DNA of 41,237 nt from a virus. The first letter of the stretch is position 1, and each line of letters opens with the position of its first letter. Positions 162 through 7,486 of the stretch are shown piece after piece. Both the position numbers and the translations under genes were made by a program. The notes beneath the pieces were generated by a model. The model saw only the letters and a list, made by a program, of their open reading frames with translations. It did no database searches and was not told where the DNA came from. The DNA lies in IMG/VR virus record IMGVR_UViG_3300042112_000276, positions 1-41,237 of that record; one strand, given 5' to 3'.

Positions 162-241
162 GGATTTTTTTTCGTCCCCCCCCCCCTGCCTAATCTTTGC
201 GCCACGATTAACCGCCACTGACTGACAGCCCACGATTGCTA

Positions 242-261
242 TTTGCTCTGTACAGAGTAAA
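242..261 (+). repeat. 20-bp near-palindrome, copy 1
   Basis: TTTGCTCTGTACAGAGTAAA with the perfect core CTCTGTACAGAG at 246-257. The only asymmetry is G245 opposite T258, a pair allowed in RNA but not in a symmetric DNA operator. Unlike copies 2, 4, 5 and 6, it is not next to a ribosome binding site. It lies about 90 bases before the -35 of P1. Confidence 0.85.
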
Positions 262-348
262 ACCTACCATTAAGTATTTTGCGCAAGCGCATTGCGCCAC
301 GCATGCGGGGAAAGCTGTTTGATGGTCGTCACAAAACCTCCACGATAC

Positions 349-377
349 TTGACACTAGGGATATATTGTGTTACAAT
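349..377 (+). promoter_or_regulatory. Promoter P1 (sigma70 type) with overlapping dyad
   Basis: TTGACA (349-354), a 17-base spacer and TACAAT (372-377) match the sigma70 consensus at 11 of 12 positions. A perfect dyad, TATATTGT-GTT-ACAATATA (362-380), overlaps the -10 element and looks like a repressor operator. The start site should be near 384, giving a leader of about 100 bases before the csrA-like gene. The ten bases TACTTGACAC are shared with promoter P2. Confidence 0.85.
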
Positions 378-411
378 ATACTCTAATGGTTAATAAGTAG
401 TTGATTGTTGA

Positions 412-432
412 TTGCCACGGCGTTGGTGGCAG
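412..432 (+). promoter_or_regulatory. Leader hairpin with GGCGUUG loop
   Basis: TTGCCAC (412-418) pairs with GTGGCAG (426-432) around the 7-base loop GGCGTTG (419-425), with one wobble at the base. It lies in the P1 leader 14 bases before near-palindrome copy 2. The loop resembles those of hairpins at 1572-1586 and 4903-4927. Confidence 0.6.
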
Positions 433-446
433 CTTGTTAATCATTG

Positions 447-466
447 GTTACTCTGTACAGAGTAAA
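447..466 (+). repeat. 20-bp near-palindrome, copy 2 (csrA leader)
   Basis: Core CTCTGTACAGAG at 451-462, with arms extending to TTA/TAA. As RNA it forms a 7-bp stem capped by a GUAC loop. The Shine-Dalgarno sequence GAAAGGA starts three bases after it. Confidence 0.85.
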
Positions 467-485
467 CGAGAAAGGAATTCTCATT

Positions 486-656
486 ATGTTAGTCGTAACT
501 GTAGATCCCAAGTCGGAACGCCTTGAAATCAACCTGCCTGACGGCCAAAAGATTGTCGTCATGGTTGAACAAAAAGTCCGTGTGGGAGTGATTGCTCCCA
601 AGGCTATCGGGATCAAGCGGGTCAAGCACAATGCCGACCCGGTCAACTCTATATAG
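486..656 (+). CDS. csrA: CsrA/RsmA-like RNA-binding regulator
   Basis: The 56-aa product resembles CsrA, a homodimeric protein that binds GGA motifs in mRNA leaders to control translation and mRNA stability. The C-terminal half has VRVGVIAPKAIGIKR, matching the CsrA signature VRIG(I/V)xAPKxVxVHR. The start ML-V-T and the length also fit the family (about 60 aa). The N-terminal half is divergent, with DPKSE in place of the usual R-x-GE. ATG 486 is chosen because GAAAGGA lies 9-15 bases upstream; a longer frame from 444 would run through the near-palindrome. It is the first gene after promoter P1. Its TAG stop lies inside a variant near-palindrome (643-662). Early phage mRNAs with AAAGGA binding sites are plausible targets, but this is inferred. 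Confidence 0.75.
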   Translation: MLVVTVDPKSERLEINLPDGQKIVVMVEQKVRVGVIAPKAIGIKRVKHNADPVNSI

Positions 657-662
657 AGTAAA
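643..662 (+). repeat. Near-palindrome, copy 3 (variant core)
   Basis: Core CTCTATATAGAG at 647-658: the GTAC centre of the other copies is replaced by ATAT, and the left arm (TCAA) no longer pairs fully. It overlaps the stop codon of the csrA-like gene and lies 74 bases before the next start codon, so its placement also differs. Confidence 0.75.
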
Positions 663-678
663 CGGTGGAAGTCGAACG

Positions 679-723
679 CCACGCTGTAGTGTCCAGCGTG
701 GTTGTTTTATTGTGTGACACTGC
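679..723 (+). promoter_or_regulatory. Hairpin with possible pseudoknot before the next gene
   Basis: CCACGCTG (679-686) pairs perfectly with CAGCGTGG (694-701) and is followed by TTGTTTTATT, so it may terminate transcription. Its whole 7-base loop TAGTGTC (687-693) can also pair with GACACTG (716-722), just before the Shine-Dalgarno sequence GAAAGGA (724-730). This could be a pseudoknot that controls ribosome access. The terminator and pseudoknot readings are alternatives. Confidence 0.5.
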
Positions 724-736
724 GAAAGGAATGTAT

Positions 737-1111
737 ATGAAGAAAAAGAAAAAGTTGTTCTTGGAAGAATTAAAAACTCCAAGCAAGAAAACGCAAGCAG
801 CATGCTTGCGTATTGTAAAAGAAAACCATGCAAGGGAAATGGCCAAAAAACCAACTCCTGTAAAAACACCAATGAATTGGTGTTATGCGCTTGTCAAAAC
901 AGGCGACAAAGATAACCCTTACTATGCGCTTGTCAAAACAGGCGACAAAGATAACCATTACTACATGGTAAAAGAAATTTACCATGTTCAAGGGCAAATA
1001 GTAAGTTATTGTGATTCACCAGTTATTCTTGGGGCTGAAGATCCCAAGGATGTTGTTAAACTATTAAGGCGAATCATCAAGTACATAAAGGGTAGCCCCT
1101 TTGTCTCTTGA
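737..1111 (+). CDS. Small hypothetical phage protein with internal duplication
   Basis: The 124-aa product has a Lys-rich N-terminus (MKKKKKLF). A 13-residue segment, YALVKTGDKDNPY, is repeated almost exactly, from a 39-bp tandem duplication. The C-terminal part (YMVKEIYHVQGQIVSYCDSP, then a helix-like acidic and basic stretch) resembles small phage proteins with an 'I-EVYYD-G-I-S-PV-GES-EEL' pattern, whose function is unknown. ATG 737 is chosen over ATG 731 because GAAAGGA ends at 730, which leaves a workable spacing only for 737. It lies between the csrA-like gene and another small unknown gene, with structured RNA on both sides. Confidence 0.7.
   Translation: MKKKKKLFLEELKTPSKKTQAACLRIVKENHAREMAKKPTPVKTPMNWCYALVKTGDKDNPYYALVKTGDKDNHYYMVKEIYHVQGQIVSYCDSPVILGAEDPKDVVKLLRRIIKYIKGSPFVS
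884..961 (+). repeat. 39-bp tandem duplication inside the small gene
   Basis: Copies at 884-922 and 923-961 differ at one base (C versus A), changing Pro to His in the repeated 13-residue segment. The near identity indicates a recent in-frame duplication. Confidence 0.9.
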
Positions 1112-1126
1112 TGACCGCCACCGTAT

Positions 1127-1187
1127 CCCCACCCTATCTTGCTGGCACTCGTTGTGACCAGCATCTGTCCGAGATTATAGGGTGGGG
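1127..1187 (+). ncRNA. Three-way-junction structured RNA element
   Basis: An 11-bp perfect outer stem joins CCCCACCCTAT (1127-1137) to ATAGGGTGGGG (1177-1187). It encloses two hairpins: GCTGGCAC with GTG-A-CCAGC (1141-1162, loop TCGTT), and ATCT with AGAT (1163-1175, loop GTCCG). TGTTTTATT follows, then the Shine-Dalgarno sequence of the next gene. It could be an attenuator, an mRNA-stabilising element or an unknown structured RNA. I do not recognise a known riboswitch or ribozyme core. Confidence 0.6.
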
Positions 1188-1213
1188 TGTTTTATTGATT
1201 GAAAGGAAACGCC

Positions 1214-1513
1214 ATGACCAAAGTGGCAAACTGCCGGGCCTCTTGGCATATTAAGGGGCTGAAAGAGTTTTCAAACCATACGGGAACCCTGTATGGAAAG
1301 AAAGTTGGCCTTCATGGGTACGCTGTGTACTCGTACGGGCCACATTTTCCCTTAGCTTTTCATAACGGAAAGTTTTGGTTATTAAATACCGAAAGGTATT
1401 CGCAAACAACTAGCAAGCAGTCCGGCATATGCCGGGAGGCTTGCGTCAATTGGATTGGCTGTGACAACGCGTTTATCATAAACGCTATCGCCACGGCCGA
1501 AAATCAGCAGTAG
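1214..1513 (+). CDS. Small hypothetical phage protein
   Basis: The 99-aa product contains YGKKVGLHGYAVYSYGPHFP, a stretch around 'NGKFWLLN', then RYSQTTSKQS. This resembles small phage proteins with a 'YSYG-HFP-A ... D-YS-TTS-HQ' pattern, seen in many phages but with unknown function. Four Cys residues lie in the second half and at the N-terminus. ATG 1214 has GAAAGGAA five bases upstream; an alternative TTG at 1199 lacks a site. Promoter P2 follows its stop after a short gap. Confidence 0.65.
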   Translation: MTKVANCRASWHIKGLKEFSNHTGTLYGKKVGLHGYAVYSYGPHFPLAFHNGKFWLLNTERYSQTTSKQSGICREACVNWIGCDNAFIINAIATAENQQ

Positions 1514-1527
1514 ATAGCATATTTTAC

Positions 1528-1556
1528 TTGACACCAGACGCACAATCTGGTATAAT
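1528..1556 (+). promoter_or_regulatory. Promoter P2 (consensus sigma70) before the moxR-like gene
   Basis: TTGACA (1528-1533), a 17-base spacer and TATAAT (1551-1556) match the sigma70 consensus exactly. The spacer contains the dyad ACCAGA (1533-1538) and TCTGGT (1546-1551), suggesting an operator. The dyad differs from the one at P1, so the two promoters may answer to different repressors. Confidence 0.9.
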
Positions 1557-1564
1557 GGTAATCT

Positions 1565-1593
1565 GTCAGTTGAAATGCGTTGTTTCTTCTGAC
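1565..1593 (+). promoter_or_regulatory. 5' leader hairpin with UGCGUUG loop
   Basis: GTCAG (1565-1569) pairs with CTGAC (1589-1593), and GAAA (1572-1575) with TTTC (1583-1586), separated by opposed TT pairs, around the loop TGCGTTG (1576-1582). The P2 start site should be near 1563, so the hairpin would sit at the 5' end of the transcript, where such structures protect mRNA. The loop is identical to the one at 4912-4918. Confidence 0.55.
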
Positions 1594-1619
1594 TGTCGGT
1601 TGTCGGTTAGAAAGGAATG

Positions 1620-1639
1620 TTTGCTCTGTACAGAGTAAA
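1620..1639 (+). repeat. 20-bp near-palindrome, copy 4 (moxR leader)
   Basis: TTTGCTCTGTACAGAGTAAA, identical to copy 1, core at 1624-1635. The single asymmetry (G1623 opposite T1636) is a G-U pair in RNA. An extra GAAAGGA plus ATG lies directly before it (1610-1619), and that ATG is in frame with the ATPase gene. The real binding site is downstream at 1653-1659. Confidence 0.85.
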
Positions 1640-1667
1640 CGACATATCTCTCGAAAGGAGAACAGTC

Positions 1668-2666
1668 ATGTTGATTAGCAAACTTAGTTCATTCGTTAGC
1701 AAGTGTTGGGACGCTCAAGTAGTCCCAATGGTTTCCGGGTCACCCGGATTGGCAAAGTCGTCTGTCGTGCGTCAACTATGCGATGCGAAAGGGTATCGCA
1801 TGGTGGACATCAGGTGTTCCATGCTGGAACCCACAGACTTTCGTGGGCTTCCGTTTGTGCAGGACGGCAATGTCTGTTGGGGTAAGCCATCACAGCTTCC
1901 CCCGGATGACGGAACCACCACGGTGTTATTTTTAGATGAGTTTACCCAAGCCAACAAGCAGGTTCAGGCAGCATGCTTGCAACTTGTGCTTGACCGTTCG
2001 TTCGGTGATTTCAAGCTTCCAGAAAGCACACTTATTGTGCTGGCTGGAAACAAGTCCAGCGATAGGGCTGGTTGCACTGGCCTGATTAGCCCGATGGCTA
2101 ATCGTTTGTGTATCGTGGAGGTTGAAATGGATCTCGACAGCTGGATGCCGTGGGCATACGCCAATGGCATCCGCAAGGAGGTCACTGGGTTCATTGAGAT
2201 GTGTCCACAGCACTTATCGCCCGGCGTGCCAAAGGTCGATGGCACTCCGTTTCCAACGCCACGATCTTGGGAGATGCTCAGCCGGTTCGCAGAACCGGAC
2301 TACGATATTATCAACGGCCTGATAGGGCCGGGGGTGGCCCCATCATATTGGGCGTGGTTATCCGTGTTCGGAAAATTCGATTTGCCAGCGATGCTGGCGA
2401 ACCCCACGACATGCGAGATCCCGGATGGGAACGACATCCGGTATGCCATCACTGCCGGGCTTAGCGAGCGTTCGATGAACGCCACGGAAGCACAGCTTGA
2501 CAGCTGTGTGACACTGGCGACACGGATGACCCCGGAGTTCGCTGCCATGTACTTCAAGTCTATCTTTGCGAAAGACCCCAAGTCCTTCGTGAAAAAGATG
2601 CTTAAGATCCCAGCTTATGTCCGGTGGTCTAAGGATCACCAAGACATGCTACGCCTAATGGCGTAG
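1668..2666 (+). CDS. MoxR-type AAA+ ATPase
   Basis: The 332-aa product is a MoxR/dynein-related AAA+ ATPase, a family of chaperone-like ATPases that usually work with a VWA-domain partner. Walker A is GSPGLAKS at residues 24-31, Walker B VLFLDE at 86-91, sensor 1 Asn at about 128, and a conserved Arg (NRL) at about 146. The lid region follows. ATG 1668 has GAAAGGAG upstream; the frame extends to 1617 through the near-palindrome but that start has no spacing for its site. The VWA metallopeptidase encoded at 3621-4889 is the likely partner. Its last codons form a small hairpin, and a hammerhead ribozyme starts two bases after the stop. Substrate and role are unknown. Confidence 0.9.
   Translation: MLISKLSSFVSKCWDAQVVPMVSGSPGLAKSSVVRQLCDAKGYRMVDIRCSMLEPTDFRGLPFVQDGNVCWGKPSQLPPDDGTTTVLFLDEFTQANKQVQAACLQLVLDRSFGDFKLPESTLIVLAGNKSSDRAGCTGLISPMANRLCIVEVEMDLDSWMPWAYANGIRKEVTGFIEMCPQHLSPGVPKVDGTPFPTPRSWEMLSRFAEPDYDIINGLIGPGVAPSYWAWLSVFGKFDLPAMLANPTTCEIPDGNDIRYAITAGLSERSMNATEAQLDSCVTLATRMTPEFAAMYFKSIFAKDPKSFVKKMLKIPAYVRWSKDHQDMLRLMA
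2651..2664 (+). promoter_or_regulatory. Hairpin over the moxR stop duplicating ribozyme stem III
   Basis: ACGCC (2651-2655) pairs with GGCGT (2660-2664) around TAAT and runs into the TAG stop. Both arms are identical to the arms of hammerhead stem III (2675-2679 and 2684-2688), so the arms could exchange partners and misfold or delay the ribozyme. Confidence 0.6.
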
Positions 2667-2667
2667 A

Positions 2668-2718
2668 GGACGAAACGCCTTCGGGCGTCCAGTGGTAATC
2701 GCCACTGCTGATGAGTCC
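2668..2718 (+). ncRNA. Type II hammerhead self-cleaving ribozyme
   Basis: All conserved hammerhead parts are present in order. Stem II 3' strand GGAC (2668-2671) is followed by core GAA (2672-2674). Stem III is ACGCC/GGCGT (2675-2679, 2684-2688) capped by a C(UUCG)G tetraloop, and the cleavage triplet is GUC (2687-2689). Stem I is CAGTGG/CCACTG (2690-2695, 2702-2707) with loop TAATCG. Core CUGAUGA (2708-2714) is followed by stem II 5' strand GTCC (2715-2718). Stems I and III are closed by loops and stem II is open, which defines type II. Cleavage is predicted between C2689 and C2690. This would separate the ATPase mRNA from the DUF6744-like/VWA mRNA, leaving a 2',3'-cyclic phosphate upstream and a 5'-OH hairpin end downstream. 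Confidence 0.93.
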
Positions 2719-2733
2719 CAGACGGACGACATG
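2715..2733 (+). promoter_or_regulatory. Alternative stem II hairpin competing with the ribozyme
   Basis: GTCC (2715-2718), which forms stem II with the upstream GGAC, can instead pair with a downstream GGAC (2724-2727) across loop CAGAC. The following GAC mimics the upstream GAA core but lacks the needed A. The two pairings are mutually exclusive, so this may switch the ribozyme off or take over after cleavage. Confidence 0.5.
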
Positions 2734-2753
2734 TTTACTCTGTACAGAGTAGA
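2734..2753 (+). repeat. 20-bp near-palindrome, copy 5
   Basis: TTTACTCTGTACAGAGTAGA, core at 2738-2749. The only asymmetry, T2735 opposite G2752, is a U-G pair in RNA. The right arm runs into the binding site AGAAAGG, ten bases from the start at 2765. Confidence 0.85.
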
Positions 2754-2764
2754 AAGGTAGTGCA

Positions 2765-3592
2765 ATGAATACTATTCATGGTAGGGGTGTGGTTGTACTG
2801 TGGAACGCTGTGGAAGCTGACCACAGCGTGTTAGCTTCGGGGCTGTTGCCAATTGGTTTTAAGCAGTTTATTCCCAATCCACGAACGCCACTTGCTTCTC
2901 TTCTGCATGCGCTGAAGCAAGTGTACACCGGGCAAAGCTGGCTGATCAGGCCATTGAAAGGCAAGAATGGTTACGCCGTAGTGCGTGAAACCAAGGGAGA
3001 AGAGGAAAACGACCTCAACCATGAGAGGTCGTTCATCATGTTTCCTGACCAAACGATGACTGTCAGTCCTTTCGACCAGTCGTTGGTCGATCAGGTCACA
3101 ACAGAGTATAGAAAAGCAGCTGGCCGTGTTTCAGCCATCGAGCTGACTGATGCCCTCAGGAGGCTGCTAACAAGCAGCACATCGGGGTTCAATGGCGTCC
3201 CCCTAAAGGATTCCGGGGCCGTCTATTGGATTCCCGAATCGGTCAAGCCATTGCTTGACCAAGTAGAGAGTGTCATACAAGGCGCCACTGGTGGCAGCTT
3301 CCGGTTTTCAATCTTTCGGCATGAGCTGAATGACGAGGAGCGAGCAAGCGTTCTCTCCGCTGCCATCCAAGACCTCAACCGCAAGTGCGGGTTGGTCTAC
3401 GAAGATGTGTCAAGCGGTGACCTAAGGGGTCAGGCGCTTCTCAACAGAGAGAAGGAGGCTGCCAATCTGATTGAGAAAGCCAAGTTCTTTCAGACTGCCT
3501 TACAGACTGACTTGTCGTCAGTCATCAAAGCCCTTGACGATGTCAAGGTGGCTGCGTCAACCGCAGCTATACTCGCAGGTTCGGCTAACTAG
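2765..3592 (+). CDS. DUF6744-like phage protein
   Basis: The 275-aa product resembles the uncharacterised DUF6744 proteins that occur in phages near MoxR and VWA genes. The best match is the central SGAVYWIPES followed by a helical LLDQVESV stretch; family members have a GGVYWVP-type motif before a helical part. The C-terminal third is predicted helical (charged, then Ala/Val-rich, ending AAILAGSAN). No catalytic motif is visible. ATG 2765 has GAAAGGTAG upstream, and the gene is preceded by the hammerhead ribozyme and near-palindrome. It is probably co-transcribed with the VWA gene 28 bases downstream. A structural or adaptor role in an ATPase/VWA complex is plausible but inferred. Confidence 0.6.
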   Translation: MNTIHGRGVVVLWNAVEADHSVLASGLLPIGFKQFIPNPRTPLASLLHALKQVYTGQSWLIRPLKGKNGYAVVRETKGEEENDLNHERSFIMFPDQTMTVSPFDQSLVDQVTTEYRKAAGRVSAIELTDALRRLLTSSTSGFNGVPLKDSGAVYWIPESVKPLLDQVESVIQGATGGSFRFSIFRHELNDEERASVLSAAIQDLNRKCGLVYEDVSSGDLRGQALLNREKEAANLIEKAKFFQTALQTDLSSVIKALDDVKVAASTAAILAGSAN

Positions 3593-3620
3593 GTTTTACT
3601 TTTAAGAAAGGAAGTGCGTT

Positions 3621-4889
3621 ATGGATAATTTCAACGAGATGGAAAGGAAGTACAAGTCAGCGCTCGTTGCGCTGATGCTTGGTCGGTTCGGTAACCGTGG
3701 GGCTGGCGCTTTTTACAGCGCCGTTGCCATGCGGTTGCCGGGCAGGTGTTCTCCTGAGGTCGAAACCTTTGCCACAAATGGCAAGGAGATCATATACAAC
3801 CCTGAGTTTATTGCCACGCTTTCCGAGCGGGAGATAGTGGGTGTCATTGCCCATGAAGTACTGCATGTTGCAGTGTTGCATCACTGTCGCAAGGGTACAA
3901 GGAATCACCAGCGCTGGAACATCGCATGCGATCTTGCGATCAATTCGATTGTTTTAGAATCCGGCATGGCGCTGCCGTCAGGCGCCGTGGTCGCAGGGTG
4001 CGGAGCGTACTCTAACATGCCATCTGGCAAGATGGCTGAGGAGTATTACACCATGTTGCCGGACATGCCTGAAAAGCCATGTCCCAATCCGGGCAGCAAG
4101 CCCGGAGACAAGGGCGATAAGCCCGGTCAAGGCGATCAACCGAGCGACCAGCCCGGTGGTCAGACCGGCGACCAGTCTGGCAATCAACCCGGAGGTGGCG
4201 GGCCTAAGCCACCCAAGAAACAGGGTGGTGGTGGCGGTTTTGGCGAGGTACTCGAGGCGCCACATCCCAAAGAGGCCGAGGCTGACGCCCGTGCCATGGT
4301 TGCAGTCGCAGCGGAGATGACCCGTGGCAATATGCCCGGATCAATCCGTGCTGCTATTGACGCCGTGCGACCATCGGTTGACTGGCGCCGTGTGCTGCAA
4401 GACCTTCTCACACGGAAGGTTCGTCAAGACTACTTGTACACAAGGCCATCACGCCGTGCTGCCAAGGGCGTGATACTCCCTGTTCTCAGTGGCAAGGCAT
4501 GCCCCAAGGTGGCAGTGTTGATTGACACATCAGGTTCTATCAACAATAAAACCTTGGCTGAGTTCGTTGCGGAGATTAAGTCGTTCCGCACCGAGGCCAA
4601 GTGCGAAATGGTGTTAGTCATGCACCATGTGCATGCCTACAGCGTGACTGAGTTTAACCCTGAGGACGAGTTTGTTATGCCTCAATCTGTGTCAGGTGGG
4701 ACATCCCACATTGACGCAATCCAGAAAGCGTTGGTTGCTGACGCTGAGATAATCGTCAGTCTTACTGACTGTCATTCCATATACCCGGATGACCCATGCG
4801 TTGATGTTATCTGGGTTCGGTACGACCAAGGCTGTGTACCCGGTGAGCCACCGGCATATGGAACGCTTGTGGATATTGTCGGCGAATAG
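3621..4889 (+). CDS. VWA-like metallopeptidase (DUF2201 type)
   Basis: The 422-aa product joins an N-terminal putative zinc metallopeptidase domain to a C-terminal VWA-like domain. The zinc motif is HEVLH at residues 78-82, followed by His87/His88 and a WNIACD motif at 99-104. A flexible linker rich in Gly, Pro, Gln and Asp spans about 151-207. The VWA metal-binding motif DTSGS is at about 302-306. This architecture (PF13203 plus PF09967) commonly accompanies MoxR ATPases, in bacteria and phages. The start ATG 3621 has AAGAAAGGAAG upstream. Its likely partner is the ATPase encoded at 1668-2666; the peptidase target is unknown. Confidence 0.9.
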   Translation: MDNFNEMERKYKSALVALMLGRFGNRGAGAFYSAVAMRLPGRCSPEVETFATNGKEIIYNPEFIATLSEREIVGVIAHEVLHVAVLHHCRKGTRNHQRWNIACDLAINSIVLESGMALPSGAVVAGCGAYSNMPSGKMAEEYYTMLPDMPEKPCPNPGSKPGDKGDKPGQGDQPSDQPGGQTGDQSGNQPGGGGPKPPKKQGGGGGFGEVLEAPHPKEAEADARAMVAVAAEMTRGNMPGSIRAAIDAVRPSVDWRRVLQDLLTRKVRQDYLYTRPSRRAAKGVILPVLSGKACPKVAVLIDTSGSINNKTLAEFVAEIKSFRTEAKCEMVLVMHHVHAYSVTEFNPEDEFVMPQSVSGGTSHIDAIQKALVADAEIIVSLTDCHSIYPDDPCVDVIWVRYDQGCVPGEPPAYGTLVDIVGE

Positions 4890-4896
4890 ATGACGG

Positions 4897-4938
4897 CATC
4901 GGGCTGGCTACTGCGTTGGTGGCCAGCTCGATCCGATG
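4897..4938 (+). promoter_or_regulatory. Intergenic double-stem hairpin with UGCGUUG loop
   Basis: An outer stem CATCGG/CCGATG (4897-4902, 4933-4938) encloses a 9-bp stem (4903-4911 with 4919-4927, one wobble) around the loop TGCGTTG (4912-4918), with TCGAT unpaired on the 3' side. TTGTTT follows, so it may terminate weakly or protect an mRNA end. It is related to the hairpins at 412-432 and 1141-1162, with stem changes that keep pairing. Confidence 0.65.
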
Positions 4939-4942
4939 GTTG

Positions 4943-4962
4943 TTTACTCTGTACAGAGTAGA
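4943..4962 (+). repeat. 20-bp near-palindrome, copy 6
   Basis: TTTACTCTGTACAGAGTAGA, identical to copy 5, core at 4947-4958, with the same U-G position (4944 opposite 4961). The following bases, GAAAGGTAGTGC, also match copy 5, so palindrome and ribosome binding site form one repeated unit of about 30 bases. Confidence 0.85.
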
Positions 4963-4975
4963 AAGGTAGTGCGTT

Positions 4976-7486
4976 ATGTGTAAGGTCAGGAAAGTTAAAG
5001 TGTGCGGAGTTGATTACACTCTTTATGGCATGGCTGAGCATGCCAAGCTAAACAAGATGACAATGCAAAGGGACAGTCACCCGTACTTCATCCCAACGGA
5101 TGAAGGCCACTATGTCAAAGCGAGGGATCAGCTGTGGTACCATGCAATGAAGTTTGCGCAGGGCGTAATGCGCAACGGGTTTGGCAGTTATTCAAATTAT
5201 CGAGTTGCAAACCAAGGCTACAAAGAATCTTCAAATCACCCAGCTGATGTGTTCTACGGCGAGATGAGATCTTTGTTTATGCGCAACCTTTTGCGTGATG
5301 ACGCAAGCTATCATCGCATACACAAGCACATAAAGTCTGCGCTGCGCAGATACTTTGCGTCAGCTCAGTCTAGGTGCAAAAGCCACAGCTATTTTATGAC
5401 TGACAAAGAACTAGGATTAGCAGCAGACTATACTCATCCTATCACAAACCACGACCTCAAACACTATCTTGGTTTCAGGAATTATGTGGTCTGCTATGTC
5501 GTTGGCTATTACCCGGCTTGGCCGTTTATATCCGAAGTTGCCACAAAATCAGCTGCCCGAAGCGCAGAAGACTCAAGGTGGCACGGCAACCTTACTGGTA
5601 TTGCGACTAAGCAGTACTACCCTGACAGCTATTACTCAAATCCTGTTAACGACAAGGTTGGCAGCGTGTTTCAAGACAACGAGCAATCCTTGCTCGAGAT
5701 ATTCAGCAGGCTTAAGCGCAAGACAACCAAGGTTGTCAACGGTTTACACAGTTTTCAAACTTACTCAAGCAGCGCCCGTGATGTGCTTAACAAGTACATC
5801 CCTGACGAAGTGGTTAGAATGGGTCTTAACATAATGGCTGACTATGTCGGTCACATGATGGCCCGTGTGTTCATGGGGTGCATTCGCATCACTAGAGAGG
5901 ACACCAAGAACGATGATCCGGCCAGCGTTTTTAATGATGAATGCGGATGGACATACGGCATCCTTAGCGTTGACATGGTTTTTGGAAGCAAGTCAACGCC
6001 GTCAGATCCCAGACTTGCTAGGCGCCAAAGCGACTACGAATCAGGGCTTGCTATAAATCCCATTCATTATAACTGCGATTGGAACGCCCACTTCCGCAAG
6101 CATCGTTACTGCATACAGTCACCAAAGAATCTTAGAACTGTCACCCGATGTCTGGTCAAGTCTAGGACTATGCACAATTACATGTACAACACTCACACTC
6201 CAAGCCAGCGCAACGCTATTGCGTCAGGCATGATGTGGTTCAAGGGTGTCGATGCCGGTTTCAAGTTTGAGTACCTGCTTGATGACATGTACTCCACCAA
6301 GATTGACAATGCAACCTTTGGTAAATCGTGCGTGTCAGTTTACCAAGAAGATAAGAAAGGTAGGCGTGGGTGGGACGATGCTCGAATGTCAAGTGGACTT
6401 TCATCTCCGCTGGATCGTGAAGTCAGTCACGCTTTGAATTTCATCGGCACCACTGCGTATGAGAAGCACCCATATATTTCAGGCACAAGATCTATCCGCA
6501 GTATGTTTGTGACGCCACGGTTCTTTGACCGTGTGTTTGCCCGTGGACTGACTTGGTCTGGCGGGATGACGACCCATGTTTACAGCAAGCCAAGGGATAT
6601 CGGCAGTGACATGATCGTGTACGAGGGGGTGCGTATTGATCACGGATGTGACATGAGTAACATGGGCGCAACCCAATTCCAGAAGTATGTTGATTCCAGT
6701 CGTGACACCGTTTCCCAGCATCAGCGTGTGTTCGTCAAGCACAAGCCAACCGGCGTAACCTTTGCCATCAAATGCGACACGATGAAGCCTGTCACTGTAG
6801 ACATGGTGAATGGCCGGAAAGTGTTCAGCAACCTGCCACGCTATGACGATGTGTGCCAGCATGAGGTGAGCAAGGAAATCACAGAGGCTTTCTCAAGCTT
6901 TCTCGCCGAGATGGAAACCATGGATTCCATGCGCATCTTCAGCACTGAGGGCAGACACATGCACGACAGCTTGGAGGAAGATCTTGGCACTAAGCAGGGG
7001 TTCAATCTGGTGAAGATGAAAACCAAGTATCTCAACATGGAATACGATCTTACTGACCCGATGATTGCCACCAATGCACGGGCGCTTGTCAAGAAATTGC
7101 ACAGGGAATCAGGCAACGCCATCGCCACGGCGCATGACTGTCGCAATCTGGCTGGGCATATCATCGCCCCGATGCTATTCAATCATGCAATCAATTGCTT
7201 CAACTCCATATTCATCCGATGCCATGACAACCTTTACATGTCACGCACTGGGCCGAAGGACAACAGCAAGTTTGACAATCACGCCAACGACACCTATCGC
7301 ATCGTGGTGGCTGACAGTCACGGAAGTGCAGTGACCGAGCATGTTTTCCCATGGTGCTACACGGTTGACAGGATGAAGAACGAGGACATGCAGCTGCGCA
7401 ACGATGTCATCGAGGTCGGCAAATCTTTCATAAGTTCCACAGACTTCCCAAGTGTAATCAGGAGTAAGACTATTTGTAATAAATAA
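4976..7486 (+). CDS. Large orphan protein (836 aa) of the MoxR/VWA module
   Basis: I do not recognise this protein. It is soluble-looking, with no signal peptide or clear membrane segment, and is rich in His, Tyr, Met, Ser and Asn. Cys residues are scattered through it, including near both ends. No Walker, nuclease, polymerase or protease motif is evident. ATG 4976 has AGAAAGGTAG upstream within the repeated palindrome/binding-site unit that also precedes the gene at 2765, which ties it to the ATPase and VWA genes in regulation. The long open frame and strong binding site leave little doubt that it is a gene. A role as substrate, scaffold or effector of the ATPase/VWA pair is a guess from position only. 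Confidence 0.8.
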   Translation: MCKVRKVKVCGVDYTLYGMAEHAKLNKMTMQRDSHPYFIPTDEGHYVKARDQLWYHAMKFAQGVMRNGFGSYSNYRVANQGYKESSNHPADVFYGEMRSLFMRNLLRDDASYHRIHKHIKSALRRYFASAQSRCKSHSYFMTDKELGLAADYTHPITNHDLKHYLGFRNYVVCYVVGYYPAWPFISEVATKSAARSAEDSRWHGNLTGIATKQYYPDSYYSNPVNDKVGSVFQDNEQSLLEIFSRLKRKTTKVVNGLHSFQTYSSSARDVLNKYIPDEVVRMGLNIMADYVGHMMARVFMGCIRITREDTKNDDPASVFNDECGWTYGILSVDMVFGSKSTPSDPRLARRQSDYESGLAINPIHYNCDWNAHFRKHRYCIQSPKNLRTVTRCLVKSRTMHNYMYNTHTPSQRNAIASGMMWFKGVDAGFKFEYLLDDMYSTKIDNATFGKSCVSVYQEDKKGRRGWDDARMSSGLSSPLDREVSHALNFIGTTAYEKHPYISGTRSIRSMFVTPRFFDRVFARGLTWSGGMTTHVYSKPRDIGSDMIVYEGVRIDHGCDMSNMGATQFQKYVDSSRDTVSQHQRVFVKHKPTGVTFAIKCDTMKPVTVDMVNGRKVFSNLPRYDDVCQHEVSKEITEAFSSFLAEMETMDSMRIFSTEGRHMHDSLEEDLGTKQGFNLVKMKTKYLNMEYDLTDPMIATNARALVKKLHRESGNAIATAHDCRNLAGHIIAPMLFNHAINCFNSIFIRCHDNLYMSRTGPKDNSKFDNHANDTYRIVVADSHGSAVTEHVFPWCYTVDRMKNEDMQLRNDVIEVGKSFISSTDFPSVIRSKTICNK

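Follow-up and report, generated by a model that had tools for sequence, protein, structure and literature searches.

Type II hammerhead ribozymes between phage genes have been known since 2011, and cleavage by prophage hammerheads is established in E. coli as well as in vitro (Perreault et al. 2011, PMC3088659). The type is recognized by its strand order, its core, closed stems I and III, an open stem II and an intergenic place in phages or prophages (RF02276; PMC3088659), often with a pseudoknot between loop I and the tail (RF02276), and a phage often carries several copies (PMC3088659). Natural strand order varies further, as the non-circularly permuted hammerheads demonstrate (Eckert et al. 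2023, PMC10085705). In the haloviruses HF1 and HF2 a hammerhead variant lies just 5′ of a helicase gene, and a transcript end has been mapped close to where it would cleave (in PMC3088659). Our literature search found no phage for which a function of mRNA splitting has been demonstrated, and no text that connects hammerheads with DUF3150/MoxR-type modules.

We analysed the 41,237-base IMG/VR virus record IMGVR_UViG_3300042112_000276, all of which is called the window here. It is well supported that its ribozyme is a fresh example of the type II kind common in phages, with which it shares strand order, core, closed stems I and III, open stem II and a place between genes. It differs in its short loop I and in having a third strand and a CAG tail where a pseudoknot, none being apparent here by eye, is common in that family. 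The window holds one copy where the type II family often has several, its core is normal whereas that of the HF1/HF2 element is a variant, and its order is the ordinary type II (GSC) one, for which no new permutation is needed.

Structure of the element

Positions 2668–2718 of the plus strand are a complete, textbook type II hammerhead with an open stem II, closed stems I and III and the full core (Table 1). This confirms the preliminary description, which had claimed such an element here, with every part in its place; the base assignments C2689 and G2672 are likewise right on the sequence. The full string reads GGAC-GAA-ACGCC-UUCG-GGCGU-C^-CAGUGG-UAAUCG-CCACUG-CUGAUGA-GUCC (^, predicted cut), and a single base (A2667) separates its 5′ end from the ATPase stop codon. 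The strands run in the order stem II 5′, GAAA, stem III hairpin, UH, stem I hairpin, CUGANGA, stem II 3′, and the bases required of the core (C3U4G5A6N7G8A9, G12A13A14, A15.1-U16.1 and H17) are all present. By eye, no 4-bp pseudoknot is apparent between UAAUCG of loop I and the CAGAC tail.

Type III hammerheads (RF00008; in phages L141, L147, L153 and L155) have a stem I hairpin, CUGAUGA and GUCC-CAGnn-GGAC hairpin like those of the window. The type III order is nevertheless absent here, since GGAC at 2724–2727 is followed by GAC AUG and not by GAAA, while the GAAA strand and the stem III hairpin lie upstream.

Table 1. Features of the ribozyme locus and its gene neighbourhood (window coordinates)
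Feature	Position	Strand	Basis
Candidate sigma-70-type promoter TTGACA-17-TATAAT, 5′ of ATPase	1528–1556	+	12/12 match; consensus match only
MoxR/AAA ATPase gene, N4 gp24 relative	1668–2666	+	AAA_5; phrog_1297 E 9e-78; tblastn to N4 gp24
ATPase stop codon TAG	2664–2666	+	Sequence
Stem II 5′ strand GGAC, partner 2715–2718	2668–2671	+	Sequence; R1 match; GCAC/GUGC in relatives
Core GAA (G12 A13 A14)	2672–2674	+	Sequence; invariant in alignment of unrelated hammerheads
Stem III hairpin ACGCC-UUCG-GGCGU, including A15.1-U16.1 (A2675-U2688)	2675–2688	+	Sequence; relatives ACCCC-ACAC-GGGGU
Predicted cleavage site, 3′ of C17 = C2689; 5′-OH product from 2690	2689–2690	+	Inferred from hammerhead consensus
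Stem I hairpin CAGUGG-UAAUCG-CCACUG	2690–2707	+	Sequence; relatives UAGGGG-UAUUG-CCCCUA
Core CUGAUGA	2708–2714	+	Sequence; invariant
Stem II 3′ strand GUCC	2715–2718	+	Sequence; R1 match
Tail CAGAC, loop of alternative hairpin II′	2719–2723	+	CAG also begins loop II in the type III hammerheads of other phages
Third strand GGAC, repeating the stem II 5′ strand; alternative partner of 2715–2718	2724–2727	+	GCAC in relatives
Inverted repeat TACTCT-GTAC-AGAGTA, between ribozyme and ribosome-binding site	2736–2751	+	One of six early-region copies
275-aa gene downstream of ribozyme, distant DUF6744 relative	2765–3592	+	hhalign, tblastn via L021 protein
DUF2201/VWA metallopeptidase-like gene	3621–4889	+	PF13203 E 1.1e-42; PF09967 E 3.5e-13

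Chance expectation and model coverage

A relaxed descriptor (three stems, each of at least 4 bp) gave 18 matches, both strands counted, in 783 Mb of sequence simulated with the dinucleotide make-up of the window; this corresponds to ~0.001 matches per 41-kb window. The hammerhead fold is also the minimum-energy fold, with a z-score of −2.8. A covariance model, R1, was built from 32 aligned hammerheads gathered by pattern from viral contigs, excluding the window's own family. In that alignment 99.8% of pair cells are paired, 12 of the 15 pairs have double changes, and covariation is 0.857 against 0.176 when shuffled. R1 scores the window ribozyme at 62 bits (E 3.7e-19). Run across the whole record it found no second hammerhead, so there is no tandem processing in this record. 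A dense array was seen elsewhere, on the minus strand of L120, where eleven R1 matches fall between phage genes within ~5 kb (174–5156).

The preliminary description had looked to the Rfam hammerhead II model (RF02276) as a check. The window gives no match to it, nor anything at the Rfam gathering thresholds, which means little because in eight control loci (L007, L009, L021, L024, L098, L114, L120 and L140) RF02276 finds five hammerheads and R1 finds 29, of which 24 are missed by Rfam. The window ribozyme belongs to a subclass with a short loop I (6 bp and a loop of 5–6 nt) that RF02276 scores below threshold; the short-loop type II hammerheads of phages are mostly overlooked by Rfam, and the subclass is largely unannotated. 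Rfam yielded no useful call at E-value thresholds either; RF00008 does give a weak match (22.7 bits, 2682–2737), reading the stem I, CUGAUGA and closed-hairpin half as type III.

Related contigs

Searches with each of three proteins (ATPase, 275-aa and VWA) returned the same few relatives (L007, L008, L009, L010 and L159), five contigs in three distinct sequence forms, each with a single hammerhead that follows the stop codon of the ATPase. A search of GTDB genomes with the ATPase gave no match. The relatives' ribozyme reads GCAC-GAA-ACCCC-ACAC-GGGGU-C-UAGGGG-UAUUG-CCCCUA-CUGAUGA-GUGC. Stems I, II and III all differ between window and relatives, yet all still pair through compensatory change, and the core is intact. 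Among L007–L009 the ribozyme is 98–100% identical, compared with 74–82% for the ATPase DNA and 71–78% for the downstream leader. These comparisons indicate that purifying selection acts strongly on an RNA whose catalytic core is intact.

Position in the operon

The left third of the record has plus-strand genes for the MoxR ATPase, the 275-aa protein, a DUF2201/VWA protein, a resolvase and RecE/RecT-type proteins, and the remainder has minus-strand genes, mostly structural. By consensus match no sigma-70-type promoter was found between 2600 and 2765. The label 'DUF6744-like', given earlier to the 275-aa protein, holds only as a distant relation: the protein has no direct Pfam match, but it can be aligned (hhalign E 6.5e-6; tblastn 2e-7) to an L021 protein that is itself DUF6744 (PF20529, E 1.1e-9). 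No named phage carrying the 275-aa protein was found.

Placement just after a stop codon is not peculiar to this family. Outside it, we considered the 194 type II hammerheads of unrelated phages that have an upstream gene; 142 of these start −1 to +5 nt from the upstream stop codon, and the next start codon lies a median of 24 nt downstream. Random placement in the same gaps would yield 83 such cases of stop-codon proximity against 131 counted. A position at the stop codon is what every functional model must explain. For the role of hammerheads in phages the window offers a clean, short and highly conserved case, flanked on either side by a single defined neighbour.

The same gene module recurs with hammerheads in L021 (IMGVR_UViG_3300048837_000975, a 125.7-kb contig), whose ATPase is only 26% identical to that of the window. 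Its hammerheads stand before and after the ATPase, after VWA and after DUF6744, that is, at each module boundary, which together with the window case makes mRNA segmentation directly testable. Nine type II hammerheads occupy 121263–125603 and 69–1163 of the contig, one block if the contig is circular and otherwise its two ends, with none in the other ~120 kb. In L150 an apparent type I hammerhead, its stems paired by eye without a model, lies just 5′ of the ATPase start codon. Hammerheads thus adjoin the ATPase module in at least three unrelated phages, a number too small for a claim of enrichment. Scans of the whole records of N4, nACB1, S-TIM61, G and 98PfluR60PP, which have a related ATPase, found no hammerheads. 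The suggestion that use between these gene families may be new stands as far as our literature search goes, which found no paper naming it, and is tempered by the hammerhead-studded module of the unrelated L021.

Proposed action and alternatives

We read the element as a cleaving type II hammerhead that splits an early phage operon transcript, and put the probability of this at roughly 0.87. The type II reading comes from anatomy, conservation, compensatory changes and the covariance model; the earlier proposal that the transcript is divided between an ATPase mRNA and a second mRNA downstream is well supported by the position and the recurrent stop-codon placement, with cleavage itself a prediction. 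Once the polymerase has passed 2718, GGAC at 2668–2671 would pair with GUCC at 2715–2718, the core would close, and the RNA would be cut after C2689. The 5′ product would be an ATPase mRNA whose 3′ end, shortly after the stop codon, is the stem III hairpin carrying a 2′,3′-cyclic phosphate; the 3′ product would be a DUF6744-like/VWA mRNA starting with a 5′-OH stem I hairpin. A cut at the stop codon would leave the upstream reading frame whole. Because both new ends would be hairpin-capped, the likeliest purpose is to give neighbouring mRNAs separate fates in stability and translation. After the cut, the strand at 2724–2727 would most likely take GUCC and close hairpin II′, releasing the 5′ product and preventing religation; for this takeover step alone our confidence falls somewhat short of even.

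The element might instead be a conserved intergenic structured RNA or processing hairpin that has lost catalysis; 4 of 18 consensus-matching hammerheads assayed did not cleave in vitro (Perreault 2011, PMC3088659). In the window and in every relative, however, the core is intact although the stems vary, which is not expected from selection on a mere hairpin, and we regard this explanation as highly improbable.

The stem II 5′ strand is repeated downstream in both the window (GUCC-CAGAC-GGAC) and the relatives (GUGC-CAGUUA-GCAC), so that the stem II 3′ strand has two possible partners, one upstream in the active ribozyme and one downstream in the closed hairpin. The third strand might be a functionless remnant of conversion between type III or I and type II, or a chance repeat, in an otherwise ordinary type II ribozyme. 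The type III phage hammerheads named above have the same closed stem II (GUCC-CAGnn-GGAC-GAAA), the RF00008 match covers the closed-hairpin half, and an unrelated type II lineage (L140/L146/L152) shares the three-strand layout, within the chance expectation of a large scan. A search made without selecting for a third strand found GUCC-CAG tails in four other lineages, among which only L140 has a strict third strand and L189 has one with a G-U pair; in GTDB genomes the GGAC/GUCC-CAG pattern had no match. Against a remnant, the third-strand segment is 100% kept among the three relatives L007–L009 despite diverged flanks, conservation ending where the segment ends, and where it departs from the window the two strands of stem II have changed along with it (GGAC/GUCC/GGAC versus GCAC/GUGC/GCAC). 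A remnant or chance repeat is a tentative alternative, at less than even odds.

The same three-strand co-change and conservation could instead mark a bistable ribozyme, in which the closed hairpin 2715–2727 turns the ribozyme off unless the cut comes before the pairing is altered by the polymerase or by a ribosome behind it; cleavage would then be timed or coupled to translation. The computed energies of the two stem II states are near equal (−19.5/−19.5 and −20.4/−20.6 kcal/mol), so the third strand could reduce rather than aid activity. The stop codon is 1 nt away, and a ribosome terminating there would sit on the 5′ strand of stem II. In prefix folding of the window, stem II prevails at 2720 (P 0.94) and hairpin II′ at 2735 (P 0.95), but the calculation is not specific: it predicts a like loss of stem II in 39 of 80 other type II hammerheads, almost none of which has a third strand, and no switch in L007 or L009. 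A timed switch derived from prefix folding was therefore rejected. So was the third strand as a general type II feature: closed hairpin II′ occurs in 7 of 225 hammerheads against 5.5 expected, which is chance level. We consider a bistable ribozyme unlikely.

We regard the third strand as a real but family-restricted feature that, most simply, may aid product separation after the predicted cut. We also entertain, as a doubtful proposition, a built-in strand exchange in which the duplicated stem II strand displaces the 5′ product after cleavage (before it, if the cut is late), making the reaction one-way or timed, within an operon module whose gene boundaries are ribozyme-marked in unrelated phages too.

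Hairpins and repeats near the locus

A perfect hairpin, CTACGCC-TAAT-GGCGTAG (2649–2666), spans the ATPase stop codon, and its arms repeat the stem III sequence; as it is missing from the relatives it was left out of the interpretation. Near-perfect sigma-70 promoter matches occur at 349–377 and 1528–1556, TG preceding the second hexamer in both, and each is followed ~65–75 nt downstream by an inverted repeat copy. This 16-base repeat, TACTCT-NNNN-AGAGTA, is present at 244, 449, 645, 1622, 2736 and 4945 (0.03 expected), and several copies lie directly 5′ of early-gene ribosome-binding sites. It may serve as a hairpin in the leader RNA or else as an operator specific to each phage. The relatives have 6–7 copies with cores of their own (TGTA in L009; GCCC/CCAG in L007; AGCT/GGCC and others in L008), and the first and last bases of the core are complementary in all eight variants.
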